The notes below the pieces were generated by a model. The model searched no databases. It saw only the letters and a list, made by a program, of their open reading frames with translations, and was not told the DNA's origin. A program made the position numbers and the translations under genes. Positions 47,603 to 52,989 of a stretch of 53,273 nt of DNA are shown here, in pieces. Origin of the DNA: Desulfamplus sp. (GTDB lineage: Bacteria > Desulfobacterota > Desulfobacteria > Desulfobacterales > Desulfobacteraceae); assembly GCA_015232555.1 (NCBI GenBank), contig JADFZJ010000029.1, forward strand, positions 1 through 53,273. Direction: 5' to 3'. Numbering within the stretch: position 1 is the stretch's first letter; the number at the start of each line of letters is the position of its first letter.

Positions 47603-47678
<76 letters not shown>

Positions 47679-47863: not shown

Positions 47864-47994
47864 GTTCTGTAGCTTTGTATTATCAATGCTTTAGTCTGGA
47901 CTCTTTATAAAATGCATAAGGTAAATTTTATTTTAAGTAACCGATAAAAGACTCATGGTTAATGACGTTAATAATAATAGAACGGAGTGTATTT

Positions 47995-49074
47995 ATGTCT
48001 GACAATACAGAACTTATTCAGCTTATCCTTAACAGAGATGAACTGAACGAGAAAGATCAGGAAAAATATTTCAATACAATCAATGGAGTTATAAAACAGA
48101 CAGCAAAGTCTCTTAAGATAAAATACGATACATTTAGTATTATGAATGTGGACTCTATTATCACCGAAGATGATTTTTTAAACCTTTGCTGGGATATAGT
48201 TGAAGGAAGCGATGATAATGAACATAGGCTTATTGATAAATTACAATCGAAGTTACAAGATATTGACTTTCCAGATGATAATCGTTTGAAAAGTTATCTA
48301 AGAAAGACATTTGAGAGGCTTTTTCTTGATAAAATATATGGGATATTTCCTGATTTTCAGACTCGCATAAAACAGGTGAGCAGGGTTATGAAGCCGTTAT
48401 GTATAAAAACAAAAGGAAAAGAGTCATCGTCAAAAGGAGATGTGTGGCAATTGAAAGATTATGACGATGCCGTGAACATTCCAACACTGGCTCAGTTAAA
48501 AGAATACACATCAAAAATCGCCATGCCTGATATAACTTACCCCAAGTCAGAAGATGGGCAGAGAGGAGCAAGCATTAAAGATAATGATATGAAAAATTAT
48601 ATGGTTGAAATCTTTCGTGCAGCAGGCGGGGTAATTTACAAAAAAGACATTGATAGCCTGATTTCTCATCTGTTTTGTATGGAGCAGATAAGCTCTTCAA
48701 AATCAGACATCAGTAACCAGAGTGATGGAGATAACGAAAAAGCTAATCAGGAAGACTCTTTTAATGCTCCTTTTTCAACAGATACCGTTATGCCTCCCTG
48801 CTGTTATATTATTATGGCGGAGCAGTGCATAAACACTATGGATGAACAGATGAAAGAGATACTCTATTATATTTATGTTAAAGAGCTTGATCAGGGAGTA
48901 GTTGCAAAAAAAATTGGAAAAAGCGAAAGCTCTGTTACCAAGATAAAACAGAAGGTTGAAAAGCATATAGGCAAATATATTCAAAATGACTCGTCTGAAT
49001 TTTCATATCAAGAGGGTAAGATTATTTTTAAATTAATAATAGAGTTAATCATTGAGAAAAGGCAGGTATTATGA
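47995..49074 (+). CDS. divergent sigma-70-family-like regulator (first gene of sigma/anti-sigma/Lon module)
   Basis: 359 aa from the ATG at 47,995, which has CGGAG 8 nt upstream; an ATG eleven codons earlier is possible. The clearest domain is a sigma region 4-type HTH at about 283-330: DEQMKEILYYIYVKELDQGV then VAKKIGKSESSVTKIKQKVE. The N-terminal half is helical and could be a degenerate region 2 (LKSYLRKTFERLFLDKIYG), separated from region 4 by a long insert of about 100 residues with a Ser/Asp-rich loop. Its stop overlaps the start of the zinc-finger gene (ATGA), and such coupling is usual for sigma/anti-sigma pairs. I infer that it redirects RNA polymerase to a set of genes that may include its own operon. 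Confidence 0.7.
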   Translation: MSDNTELIQLILNRDELNEKDQEKYFNTINGVIKQTAKSLKIKYDTFSIMNVDSIITEDDFLNLCWDIVEGSDDNEHRLIDKLQSKLQDIDFPDDNRLKSYLRKTFERLFLDKIYGIFPDFQTRIKQVSRVMKPLCIKTKGKESSSKGDVWQLKDYDDAVNIPTLAQLKEYTSKIAMPDITYPKSEDGQRGASIKDNDMKNYMVEIFRAAGGVIYKKDIDSLISHLFCMEQISSSKSDISNQSDGDNEKANQEDSFNAPFSTDTVMPPCCYIIMAEQCINTMDEQMKEILYYIYVKELDQGVVAKKIGKSESSVTKIKQKVEKHIGKYIQNDSSEFSYQEGKIIFKLIIELIIEKRQVL

Positions 49075-50369
49075 TGAAAAACAGAGAGATAAAAACAGAA
49101 TACAAAAAAAATCCAGCATCTCTTCAGAACCGTTTTTGTTATACAGGTGAAGAGATAAATGAATATATAAATGGAACGATATTGCCAGCAAAAAGGGCAG
49201 AAATTTCACTACATCTCAATATAGAAAAGTGTTCAAGATGTCGTCAGCTTTTCACATTGATAGCCTCAAGCAATTATAAGGTAAACAGTATTGAAGATTT
49301 TGATGGTAAAGACCAGAATTTCACTAAATATAGCCCTACAGAATATACTCCTACAGAGCAGAAAATATTTGAACGTATTAAAAGCAGGAAGAAAAGAGAG
49401 AGGACAAATCCTGTTCCATTTAATATAAAAAATCGTGTGGAAAGAAGTCAGATATGGACAACTTCCCCAAAACCAAAAAACATGCAGGGGCAGCAGCTTG
49501 AAACAGTTGAAGCTGGAGTCCCTGTTTTGATTGTAGATAATGGTAATGGAGATAAAAAACTATCCAACATTATCAGGGTTATGCCATTGAGCTTTGATAC
49601 TGATTTTCATAAAGAGGGCGAAACTTTCTGTTTTAATTTATCTTACAACTCATCTAATCCATCTGTCTCTTCTGATAAGCCTCCACATTCAAATCCTCTT
49701 GGCTATCCTTTTCTTGTAGAGATATTTAATGAGCGTCCCATGTTAGCTGGTAATCTTTCCCGTTTCAGAAGCATAGTTTCAAAGGCAGATATGGATATGA
49801 TTGATGGGCTACTAAAACAGTATCGTTATGGAGAAGATACAAATAGGATCGGTGATAATTTTGCGAAAGGTAAAGATGCCATCAATAGAGGCAGAGATGA
49901 AAACAATACAGATTCGTATTTAGACATATCAGAACAAGAGAGGTTGGAGCAGATAAAAGCATGGCAGCAAAAAGAGAGAGAACTGTGCGAATATCTCACC
50001 TTGCCAGCGAATGAGAGCCTTCAAGATGAGGATGATATAGCAATAATAAAGGTATCGGAATATAAAAGGGCAGCAGATGGTTCTGGTCTATCAAGGATAG
50101 AAGAGAAACAAATCCTTATAGATAACGATGATTACCGTTTTGTTGTTATACAAAAACAGGAAAAAATTATTCTAAGGTTTGATTCTTCTACTATTAAACC
50201 TGACTCTATTCTGATTGATGGTAATGCAGCAGAGATTCAGATGAGTGATTATGGAGAGTATGATGTTGAGATTGGGAATGCTCGCTACCTGCCAGAAAAA
50301 ATTGCTGTTATTCTTATGCTTGATGAGGATAGTTTTGAGTTTCAGCTAACCTTTAATCATAAAGATTAA
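49071..50369 (+). CDS. putative soluble zinc-finger anti-sigma factor
   Basis: 432 aa. The N-terminal 65 residues look like an anti-sigma zinc finger: EEINEYINGTILPAKRAEIS followed by H48-x5-C54-x2-C57 (LHLNIEKCSRCRQL), with C23 a possible fourth ligand. The usual spacing is Hx3CxxC, so this is a variant. There is no transmembrane helix, so it should be cytoplasmic. The middle is charged and probably flexible (RIKSRKKRERTN; later KAWQQKERELCEYL), and the last 110 residues are beta-rich. It starts inside the sigma-like gene's stop and ends 4 bp before the Lon-TPR gene. I infer that it holds the sigma-like protein inactive and is the natural substrate of the protease. Confidence 0.65.
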   Translation: MMKNREIKTEYKKNPASLQNRFCYTGEEINEYINGTILPAKRAEISLHLNIEKCSRCRQLFTLIASSNYKVNSIEDFDGKDQNFTKYSPTEYTPTEQKIFERIKSRKKRERTNPVPFNIKNRVERSQIWTTSPKPKNMQGQQLETVEAGVPVLIVDNGNGDKKLSNIIRVMPLSFDTDFHKEGETFCFNLSYNSSNPSVSSDKPPHSNPLGYPFLVEIFNERPMLAGNLSRFRSIVSKADMDMIDGLLKQYRYGEDTNRIGDNFAKGKDAINRGRDENNTDSYLDISEQERLEQIKAWQQKERELCEYLTLPANESLQDEDDIAIIKVSEYKRAADGSGLSRIEEKQILIDNDDYRFVVIQKQEKIILRFDSSTIKPDSILIDGNAAEIQMSDYGEYDVEIGNARYLPEKIAVILMLDEDSFEFQLTFNHKD

Positions 50370-50373
50370 CGCC

Positions 50374-52599
50374 ATGATTCAACAGCTTTATTCAATATAC
50401 GATTCTGGCAATTTTAATGCATGTCTGCAAACAGCATTAAGTAGTTTTGATAGCAAGATGAGGAATAAATCTGATGTTATGGTTCTCGTGATAAATATTA
50501 TATCTAACCATAACAGATTTCTAACTCAAAAAACTGTTCAAACAATTTATTGGTTCAGAAAAGGCTATGCTAACAACGATACTCTTATACAGTCGTTTGA
50601 TAGGGCAATTGAAAATATTTTTGGGCTATTACCCGTTAATAATGATAAGGCAATTGAAAACGTTTTGGGGATACTGCCTGTTAATCTAAATGAGTTTGAA
50701 CAGACTATTGAATCTTACAAACAACCATTTTTACCAGAAGGGGTCGAGACCATTTGTGGTCAATCTTGCTTTCCAGCAGTAAATTCAACAGACGGTGCTG
50801 TTTATATGCTCAAAATTCTGGATACTTGTCACTTTGGAACAGTAGTATCACCATCACGAATCCTCAATCAATCCGAAAAACATCTGCTTGACATTACTGT
50901 CTCTGCTTTTTTTTCATATCTAAATCAAACCTCAAAAAACTCTTCTGAACAGCAAAGCCATAAGCTATCAATACCGATATCGTTCCCTTTGATTGGGAAC
51001 CCATCACGCTATACTTTTCTAATTGAGGACTCGTTTGGAAAAGAGGTAAACAACAAAGTAGAGGGCAATTCAATGGGCGTTGCCATGCTCATATCATTGG
51101 CTTCTCTGATTTACGGTCAACCTGTACCTATTGAAATCGCATCAAGTGCAAGAATCAATAGGCACGGTGACGTGTTGCCTGTCCAATCAATAGATAAAAA
51201 ACTAAAAGCAATTAAAACAGAGAGGGATTATATCAAGCAGGTTCTTATTTCAGATAAGCAGATTCTGCCTGAAAATAGAGATTTACCAGAATTTGAATAT
51301 ATACAGGTCAGAAATATAGCAGATGTGATGAAAGTTATTTTTCCTAACTCTTCTAACCATTTTTCATCTGAACCCTTTTGTTCTCATATCCAAATTGACC
51401 TGCAACATGCTATTGAGATTATGGAGAGGCAGTATAAAGATTATATGGTTGATACCTGTATTGATAATTGCCGTCTGCTCATTGATTATATTGATAAAAA
51501 AATCAATTCAGAGTCCAAAAATATACGAGGGACAGATAAACGGTTAGAATATCTGTTCCGCTGCTACTGGAAGTTGGGGGCGTGTTATTGCCATAAAGGC
51601 AATATAACTGAATCTGAAAAATATCTGAAAAAGGCAGAGGAGCTTTACAAGAAAAATAGGTCGATTATAGAACCCAGAGATTACTATAACTCCAGAAATA
51701 ACTATGCGGTATTATTAAAAGATATCTTCTGCTATGAAAAAGCTGAAGCATTGCACCGTAAAATTGAGAAGGAACTGAAAACAAAAGAGTCTCCCCGAAA
51801 CAATGTCAGTGAAAATCTAAGTTCTTTGAGTCAATTGTATCTTGCTCAACAGCGATATAAAGATGCAGCAACCCGTCAAAAAGAGGCGATAAAATGGATA
51901 GCAACAGATGAGCTGCATCGCAACTACGGCTATCTTGCACAGATATATGCAAGAATGGGGGCATTTGATAAAGCTAAAAACTCTCTTGAACAAGCTCAAA
52001 ATCGTATTGAGAATATTCAAGATTTATCGACAAAAAAGATTCAACTTAGTTACTTTCACTGGATAGAGTCAGAATATCTCTATAGAAGAGCTATTTTCCT
52101 TAAACGTAATTCAAGCAAATATTACGAAAAATTAAACCTGCTCTCTAAACAATACGAAAATATTACACATTTTACACATGGATTGATTAATAAATTCTGC
52201 GGTTTAGCAATGCTATATTTTGAAGAATCAGAAAAAGGATTAGAGCTTTTACAAAAGGCTCAAGACTATTTTGACGCACAGATTGCTCCAATGATGGCAC
52301 TTCTTGGAGCTACAGTCCGCATTGGAAAACTATCTGCAATGTGCAAGTTAGAATCGTCATTAAATCAAGAAATGATCAGTCAACAAATAATAGAAGAAAT
52401 TGAAAAGATTATAAATGCTCTTTCTGTTCAGACAAATATCAGAGAGTTTTTTCATAAGGATATTAAAATTCTGCAAAAATCGTTGTCATGCAGACGTGAA
52501 TCTGTCAGGGATTGCTATCCAGCTTCTGGCGGAATATCTGAAACGTGGCAGCCTGTTCTTGAAATATTACAATCCATTAATCAAAAGATTCCATATTGA
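50374..52599 (+). CDS. Lon-family (S16) Ser-Lys protease domain with C-terminal TPR repeats
   Basis: 741 aa. Residues about 155-325 are a Lon proteolytic domain without the AAA+ motor: VEGNSMGVAMLISLASLIYG carries the nucleophile S233, and HGDVLPVQSIDKKLKAIK carries K276, the same 43-residue spacing as S679/K722 of E. coli Lon; LISDKQ ... FEYIQVRNIADVMKVIF matches the end of the fold. Residues about 395-550 contain at least four TPR units (YWKLGACYCHKGNITESEKY; NYGYLAQIYARMGAFDKAKN), perhaps more up to 640. The N-terminus (1-120) is unknown and holds a duplicated segment, AIENIFGLLPVNN/AIENVLGILPVN. With no ATPase, unfolding is unlikely, so it should cut an exposed loop. The TPR part probably senses a partner. 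It ends a coupled three-gene operon. Confidence 0.82.
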   Translation: MIQQLYSIYDSGNFNACLQTALSSFDSKMRNKSDVMVLVINIISNHNRFLTQKTVQTIYWFRKGYANNDTLIQSFDRAIENIFGLLPVNNDKAIENVLGILPVNLNEFEQTIESYKQPFLPEGVETICGQSCFPAVNSTDGAVYMLKILDTCHFGTVVSPSRILNQSEKHLLDITVSAFFSYLNQTSKNSSEQQSHKLSIPISFPLIGNPSRYTFLIEDSFGKEVNNKVEGNSMGVAMLISLASLIYGQPVPIEIASSARINRHGDVLPVQSIDKKLKAIKTERDYIKQVLISDKQILPENRDLPEFEYIQVRNIADVMKVIFPNSSNHFSSEPFCSHIQIDLQHAIEIMERQYKDYMVDTCIDNCRLLIDYIDKKINSESKNIRGTDKRLEYLFRCYWKLGACYCHKGNITESEKYLKKAEELYKKNRSIIEPRDYYNSRNNYAVLLKDIFCYEKAEALHRKIEKELKTKESPRNNVSENLSSLSQLYLAQQRYKDAATRQKEAIKWIATDELHRNYGYLAQIYARMGAFDKAKNSLEQAQNRIENIQDLSTKKIQLSYFHWIESEYLYRRAIFLKRNSSKYYEKLNLLSKQYENITHFTHGLINKFCGLAMLYFEESEKGLELLQKAQDYFDAQIAPMMALLGATVRIGKLSAMCKLESSLNQEMISQQIIEEIEKIINALSVQTNIREFFHKDIKILQKSLSCRRESVRDCYPASGGISETWQPVLEILQSINQKIPY

Positions 52600-52720
52600 T
52601 GGCAAAACTACGAGATCAGCCTGTTCTACTCTTCGTAACTATCCCCATCCCAGTCGTCATCATTTATAGCCTCATTTATACTCTGAACCGTCAGAAATTT
52701 AGTTTTTATTCAATATTGCA

Positions 52721-52813
52721 GCCGTTGGGCTAAAGCCCTCGGCTACCTATAAAAGAAGCCCGCTTAAGCGGGCTTGGATTGGGGAATAGCCCAGAGCTTT
52801 CGCTCTTGGGCTA
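52721..52813. repeat. cluster of three palindromes after the Lon-TPR gene
   Basis: In a gene-free stretch (52,600-52,989): GCC-GTT-GGGC-TAAA-GCCC-TC-GGC at 52,721-52,743; a perfect 20-bp palindrome AAGCCCGCTTAAGCGGGCTT at 52,756-52,775; and TAGCCCAGAGC-TTTC-GCTCTTGGGCTA at 52,787-52,813. They look like REP-type units and may also stop or stabilise the operon transcript. Confidence 0.6.
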
Positions 52814-52860
52814 TAAAGAATTAAAAGCTCAAATTAAGACCGTGTAAAGTATATTTGTAT

Positions 52861-52889: not shown

Positions 52890-52989
52890 AGTTGTAATGG
52901 CGTTCTCTACTACAAACCATAATCATCTTTCAAGCCAAATCCATAGAAGTCTCAATCCCCTCTAATCGGGGCGGTGTTTCTGACAGTTA

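Follow-up and report, generated by a model that had tools for sequence, protein, structure and literature searches.

Near the end of contig JADFZJ010000029.1 from a Desulfamplus sp. genome (GCA_015232555.1), three coupled genes occupy positions 47995 to 52599 of the 53,273-nucleotide stretch that we analysed, hereafter the window. All lie on the forward strand, and they encode a sigma-like protein of 359 amino acids (47995..49074) with a region-4 helix-turn-helix at about residues 275–330, a soluble zinc-finger protein of 432 amino acids (49071..50369), which we propose to be both an anti-sigma factor and a protease substrate, and a protease of 741 amino acids (50374..52599) in which a Lon domain is fused to tetratricopeptide repeats (TPRs), here called Lon-TPR. 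The three frames are open, the first two genes overlap by 4 nt, and a gap of 4 bp separates the second from the third, which reproduces the coupling claimed in an earlier, sequence-only reading of this DNA. The overlap between the sigma-like and zinc-finger genes is exactly 4 nt in all four loci described below. An alternative start of the first gene, at 47962, is also open; the start at 47995 is favoured because a GGAG motif lies ahead of it and because of the alignment with the homologue in G009, a metagenome-assembled genome of the same genus, both proteins starting with MSD. Between the window and G009, the ratio of nonsynonymous to synonymous substitution (dN/dS) is about 0.23 for the sigma-like gene, 0.28 for the zinc-finger gene (first 345 residues) and 0.19 for the Lon-TPR gene, each value being an average over both lineages with dS near saturation. 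Ratios of 0.2–0.3 are not those of chance frames; the genes are real, their coupling holds, and purifying selection acts on all three. No membrane segment is present in any of their products (best 19-residue Kyte-Doolittle means of 0.96, 0.87 and 1.49, in gene order).

The sequence-only reading had described the third protein as an S16 protease domain fused to TPRs, and this was confirmed by matches over the Pfam cut-offs to Lon_C (E 8.6e-7, residues 230–322) and to TPR_12 (E 2.1e-10, best stretch 439–507), the C-terminal half of the protein being TPR, and by a Ser-Lys dyad at 51070..51201, in which S233 (51070–51072) and K276 (51199–51201) are invariant in 4/4 homologues and, in an alignment with the Lon protease of PDB 8dvh, pair with its Ser and Lys. 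A four-row profile of Lon-TPR matched Lon proteases in the PDB (E 1.2e-9); the TPR part matched the TPRs of kinesin light chain best (E 8.1e-5), with no protease among its matches. No CHAT domain was found among the Pfam matches of the window protein at E ≤ 1, and PADLOC returned no match for this protein at E ≤ 1. For the homologue in G764, a genome of another class, the best PADLOC match was CRISPR-Lon (E 3.2e-5, Lon part only), and the CRISPR-Lon, CARF-Lon and SAVED-Lon models cover it only within residues 166–279. Because these models touch the G764 protease only within those residues and leave the window protein unmatched, no SAVED or CARF sensor is seen by sequence. At the start of the TPR part lies a cluster of C397, C404, C406 and H407 (window 51562–51594), invariant in 4/4 homologues, that is a possible metal or redox site.

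In the zinc-finger protein, the segment from C23 to C57 (49137..49241, + strand) has the spacing C-x24-H-x5-C-x2-C, and its ligands C23, H48, C54 and C57 are invariant in 4/4 homologues. No Pfam zinc-finger family matched the window protein at E ≤ 1; hhalign nevertheless aligned a profile of its first 80 residues, with a probability of 76%, to a G324 protein whose own match to zf-HC2 is only weak (E 0.0029, under the cut-off), and control alignments with two other proteins and five shuffles gave 0.1–0.4%. Together with the lack of a hydrophobic segment, these results uphold the earlier description of a zinc-finger N-terminus without a membrane anchor, and we regard the finger as zf-HC2-like. 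As in zf-HC2 anti-sigma factors, the finger is N-terminal and built of C, H, C and C, and its gene overlaps a sigma-like gene; unlike that family, whose pattern is H-x3-C-x2-C, the module has H-x5-C-x2-C and long extra domains, and its sigma binding is a prediction. The structure model of the whole protein is poor (mean predicted local distance difference test, pLDDT, of 40), and only residues ~340–430 are modelled well (pLDDT ~75–85). This C-terminal beta domain is a beta sandwich with middling structural matches (best Z 6.8 to FetP, then NEAT and MALT1 domains), which may reflect just a common arrangement and were not used for function; the zinc-finger profile had no match below E 0.8 in the PDB.

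The region-4 helix-turn-helix proposed earlier for the sigma-like protein was borne out by matches to PF08281 (E 3.8e-4) and to TIGR02937 (E 1.8e-5), which are significant yet fall short of the curated cut-offs, and by a match of a four-row profile to region 4 of SigF in the PDB (1l0o, E 0.0011). The G009 homologue matches TIGR02937 at E 1.5e-6, also under the cut-off, with the match beginning at model position 45. For region 2, an hhalign comparison of residues 1–140 scored no better than controls, and the TIGR02937 match of the G009 homologue is partial and sub-threshold. At E ≤ 0.01, NCBIfam gave no sigma match for the G764 protein or for that of G795, a second genome of the same class, and Pfam gave none for the former at E ≤ 0.1. 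The predicted structure, with a mean pLDDT of 46 and no PDB match at E ≤ 0.001, was not used for function, and region 4 is the main ground for calling the protein sigma-like.

Full-length homologues were found in four genomes (the window's own, G009, G764 and G795), and the sigma-like, zinc-finger and Lon-TPR genes follow one another in that order in all of them, which supports the sequence-only reading; a Lon-TPR gene found mostly apart from the other two, which that reading had named as evidence against itself, has no full-length instance among the sampled genomes. Identity to the window proteins is 59% in G009, 24% in G764 and 25% in G795 for the sigma-like protein, 57%, 36% and 38% for the zinc-finger protein, and 53%, 31% and 35% for Lon-TPR, whose frame in G795 is broken into pieces of 458 and 125 amino acids. 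Two of the four contigs are only 7–11 kb.

A BLAST search with the protease in 58 relatives (E ≤ 0.001) matched 51 of them. Beyond the window it yielded a single full homologue, that of G009, with 55% identity in its best segment, while G002 had a fragment of the N-terminus; the remaining matches began at residue 229 or 230 and covered the Lon part only, and most of them lay in frames of 780–870 amino acids, the length expected for ordinary Lon proteases. With the zinc-finger protein as query, BLAST found the window's own genome only (1/194). Among profile searches, whose genome samples overlap, a two-row sigma profile matched 3/389 genomes of the class (the window's own, G009 and a weak region-4 match in G324), a two-row zinc-finger profile 2/395 of the phylum (own and G764), a three-row zinc-finger profile 2/85 of G764's class (G764 and G795), and the four-row Lon-TPR profile at E ≤ 1e-15 2/395 (own and G764) and 2/389 (own and G009), the last searches having scored two first-look candidates per listed genome, such that a divergent homologue could be passed over. 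Scans of genome contigs and viral contigs with the Lon-TPR sequence found no relative, and these scans miss relatives at ~55% identity, since the G009 contig was in the scanned set and went unmatched. The zinc-finger alignment retrieved only that contig (L028) among genome contigs, and its three-row version none among viral contigs; tblastn of plasmids with Lon-TPR and with the sigma-like protein likewise found none.

The weak sigma match in G324 was rejected as a member of the triad. There (G324:C41, L045 64–3278), an extracytoplasmic function (ECF) sigma factor with regions 2 and 4, a zf-HC2-like protein and a CHAT peptidase (E 5.5e-27) stand in a row; the set resembles the module in its succession of sigma-like, zinc-finger and peptidase genes, and differs in its CHAT peptidase without Lon, its ordinary ECF sigma factor and its short zinc-finger protein. 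Separately, remains of a broken Lon-TPR N-terminus and of the zinc-finger middle domain lie on the minus strand of G002:C233, from the same genus as the window (L029 5552–5926 and 5959–6213).

In G009, the zinc-finger protein and Lon-TPR form a single open reading frame of 983 amino acids, and this natural fusion points to the partner of the protease without experiment. The joined protein lacks approximately the last 88 residues of the window zinc-finger protein, its junction lies near the start of Lon-TPR, and what is missing is the beta domain at the C-terminus of the window model. Because the fusion does without this domain, the domain may serve to tether substrate to protease and become needless once the chains are joined. 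In the CRISPR-associated Calp system, a 10-kDa piece of CalpT binds the protease CalpL. The CalpL–CalpT complex is preformed, according to an excerpt of PMC12751052.

CRISPR neighbours played no part in finding any of these loci. CRISPR genes nevertheless adjoin three of the four, and the fourth, in the window, has an orphan CRISPR repeat, contrary to the suggestion of the sequence-only reading that the module operates without CRISPR. The order in G009 is a CARF-adenosine deaminase (E 3.7e-204, by PADLOC), CARF-DUF2103 (5.1e-112), the sigma-like gene, the zinc-finger/Lon/TPR fusion, PrimPol (3.4e-104) and Cas2 (3.9e-24); the genome has large arrays, with 138 copies of a 36-nt repeat at ≤3 mismatches, and its CARF-DUF2103 protein is 75% identical to that in a type III-A operon of the window's genome. 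In G764, a type III-B locus of cas6, cmr1, cmr2 and cmr3 begins 135 bp after the triad; the G795 triad precedes cas6 and, at the contig end, the first 260 residues of a Cas10 for which III-A is the best subtype model.

Several smaller features accompany these loci. Directly ahead of the sigma-like gene, G764 and G795 have a gene of 273 and 264 amino acids, respectively (L068 9753–10574; L071 5980–6774), whose products are 50% identical to each other and have no Pfam match, and which is absent from the window and G009 loci. Two further single repeats in G009 (L028 309–344 and 875–910, with 1 and 2 mismatches) lie around antitoxin-like genes before the CARF-adenosine deaminase gene, and a differing CRISPR-like repeat (L058 1–35) precedes an array of the common repeat by ~115 bp.

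The orphan repeat of the window (36 nt, 52949..52984, + strand) lies 349 bp past the protease gene and is identical to the G009 repeat at 36/36 positions. At ≤3 mismatches, this repeat has one copy in the window's genome and one, with 2 mismatches, in G002, and a backward-pattern control had none in these two genomes or in G009. Contig C12 of the window's genome has the type III-A operon (L056 1808–12419, within G000:C12:6000-25000), comprising cas6, Cas10/Csm1 with GGDD, Csm2, RAMP genes at the places of Csm3 and Csm5, a 344-amino-acid gene without a Pfam match at the place of Csm4, Csx20, CARF-DUF2103 and a CARF-HEPN protein. No array was found in the 19-kb stretch around this operon (other repeats and cas1 were not searched genome-wide). 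Because Cas10 retains GGDD in both G764 and the window's genome, a second messenger is probably made. A dispersed element, 86% identical between its copies, is found downstream of the module (window 52695–52817) and between csm2 and cas10 of the operon (L056 8635–8756).

The gene set, its order and coupling, the conserved catalytic and zinc residues, the CRISPR neighbourhood and the one natural fusion are matters of observation, and we consider it probable that the three genes form a module of protease, anti-sigma and sigma factor associated with type III CRISPR. On its best reading, this module is rare and has Lon fused to TPRs, with no SAVED or CARF sensor detected by sequence. We infer each biochemical step of its mechanism, namely cleavage, sigma binding and the activating signal. 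In a resting cell, the zinc-finger protein would hold the sigma-like protein; when a type III complex meets foreign RNA, Lon-TPR would be switched on and would cut the zinc-finger protein, and the sigma-like protein would then be free to direct the transcription of defence genes. Given that TPRs are present and that no SAVED or CARF domain is detectable, the signal would most likely be received by the TPR part through protein contact, with the type III complex or with a CARF partner (compare Csx29 with Cas7-11). A second messenger, if used by Lon-TPR, would act directly or through a CARF partner, and the window copy of the module would work in trans with its genome's type III-A operon, which lies on a different contig. 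A bolder and more tentative version is that the Lon-TPR proteins would be a new class of RNA-guided protease, whose Lon domain would be switched on by III-A and III-B complexes via bound TPRs rather than by a SAVED or CARF ligand, with the anti-sigma factor as substrate; in the single chain of G009, self-cleavage would free the sigma factor from its own protease.

Some results weigh against a CRISPR-controlled protease and sigma module. No cas gene was recognised near the module on the window contig, where the repeat is a single copy, and no Cas10 (PF22335) or RAMP (PF03787) match was found in G009, which is 85% complete, such that "type III" rests there on the CARF genes. The module is known from just four genomes of a single phylum; sigma region 2 is not established by profile, and the structure models of the sigma-like and zinc-finger proteins are poor. 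In addition, the CHAT-based triad of G324 (cas genes were looked for only among its six listed open reading frames) has an analogous composition. If sigma, zinc-finger and peptidase genes constitute a general stress cassette that just happens to sit in defence neighbourhoods, with a signal unrelated to CRISPR and TPRs that sense some other partner, then the G324 set, and a window module that stands alone apart from one repeat, would both be accounted for. Such a cassette is unlikely, however, given that CRISPR genes, with two kinds of Cas10, adjoin 3/4 loci although CRISPR was not a search criterion, and that the window repeat is identical to that of the G009 array.

Alternatively, the window copy might be in decay, the remnant of a CRISPR locus that has been lost, with no present function. 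The single orphan repeat, with no array in the window, would fit this explanation, as would the situation in G002, whose zinc-finger and Lon-TPR genes survive only as broken pieces, which has one imperfect repeat and in which no sigma match was found; but the three frames are open, the zinc and catalytic residues are retained, dN/dS is low (though averaged over both lineages), and the window's own genome has a type III-A operon, all of which make decay improbable. A further possibility concerns the output: the zinc-finger protein could carry a MazF-like toxin that the protease frees, causing RNA cleavage instead of, or besides, transcription. A CalpT fragment of ~23 kDa is said to resemble MazF (PMC9704534), and the middle domain, when compared with a PemK profile (17/23 loci) by hhalign, scored 24.1, and 18.2 in the reverse direction, against 8.9–14.2 for controls. 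The corresponding probabilities are low (15.5% and 2.5%), no Pfam PemK match was found at E ≤ 10 for any of four middle-domain pieces, and the sigma-like gene overlaps the zinc-finger gene in 4/4 loci; while the middle domain is perhaps MazF-like, a weak lead, a freed toxin as the output is very unlikely. The type III CRISPR-associated module remains the reading that we favour.

Possible targets of the sigma-like protein are confined to G009, where the promoter-like 15-mer CCAATTCCGTTTATA occurs exactly at L028 8519–8533, 83 bp before the start of PrimPol, and again at L028 10560–10574, just after cas2 and near the contig end. With one mismatch it adjoins a CRISPR array of this genome (L058 53–67, minus strand), and with two it falls inside a spacer (L057 1937–1951). 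Five single-base shuffles of L028 had no occurrence at ≤2 mismatches, and there was no match in the window or in the Csm stretch of its genome. These sites are candidate sigma targets, to be taken as a lead only.

On the other side of the module, a tRNA-Phe gene, a common insertion site of islands, lies 316 bp ahead (window 47603–47678), and a check for an island border did not find its 3' end repeated elsewhere in the window. The G+C content of the module is 0.350, compared with 0.371 for positions 1–47600, and is inside the range of that region (0.329–0.423).

The comparison of the module with two characterised systems, made in the sequence-only reading, proved apt: its Lon domain recalls CalpL and its TPRs recall Csx29. 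The Calp set of type III CRISPR comprises a Lon-SAVED protease (CalpL), an anti-sigma factor (CalpT) and an ECF sigma factor (CalpS). CalpL cuts CalpT and thereby frees CalpS (excerpt of PMC11417357). In the other system, the TPR-CHAT protease Csx29 is bound to Cas7-11 and cleaves Csx30, a protein that binds CASP-sigma (excerpt of PMC10028731). With CalpL, CalpT and CalpS the module shares a Lon-family Ser-Lys protease beside an inhibitor and a sigma-like gene, a type III CRISPR link and a soluble substrate; it differs in that its protease has TPRs where CalpL has SAVED, its inhibitor has a zinc finger, its sigma-like protein is divergent with a long middle part, and protease and inhibitor are fused in one genome. 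With the type III-E set of Csx29, Csx30 and CASP-sigma it has in common a protease with TPRs, a separate inhibitor (a proposed one in the module), a sigma or sigma-like factor and a CRISPR locus, whereas it uses a Lon Ser-Lys protease instead of CHAT and is associated with Cas10-type loci (III-A, III-B) instead of Cas7-11. Because SAVED was not detected by sequence, the module would not be a Calp member, and because CHAT was not found, it would not be a III-E member; it appears to be a new variant of the CRISPR-associated protease/sigma theme, distinct from both. The earlier statement that no named system has this exact set still stands, in that no Lon-TPR or TPR-Lon CRISPR module was found in the open-licence literature, supplements excluded, and the effectors named in the accessible portions of a 2025 classification and of a survey of type III systems from 2024 include Lon or CHAT proteins and no Lon-TPR.

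If this interpretation is correct, CRISPR-controlled proteolysis ending in a sigma factor would exist with two protease folds, CHAT and Lon, and with both ligand sensors (SAVED) and TPRs, and the manner in which a type III complex activates a protease that has no recognisable domain for binding cyclic oligoadenylate would become directly testable. Programmable proteases that sense RNA would gain a member with a Ser-Lys active site, and the module would represent an undescribed route by which a bacterial immune system alters gene expression upon detecting a virus.

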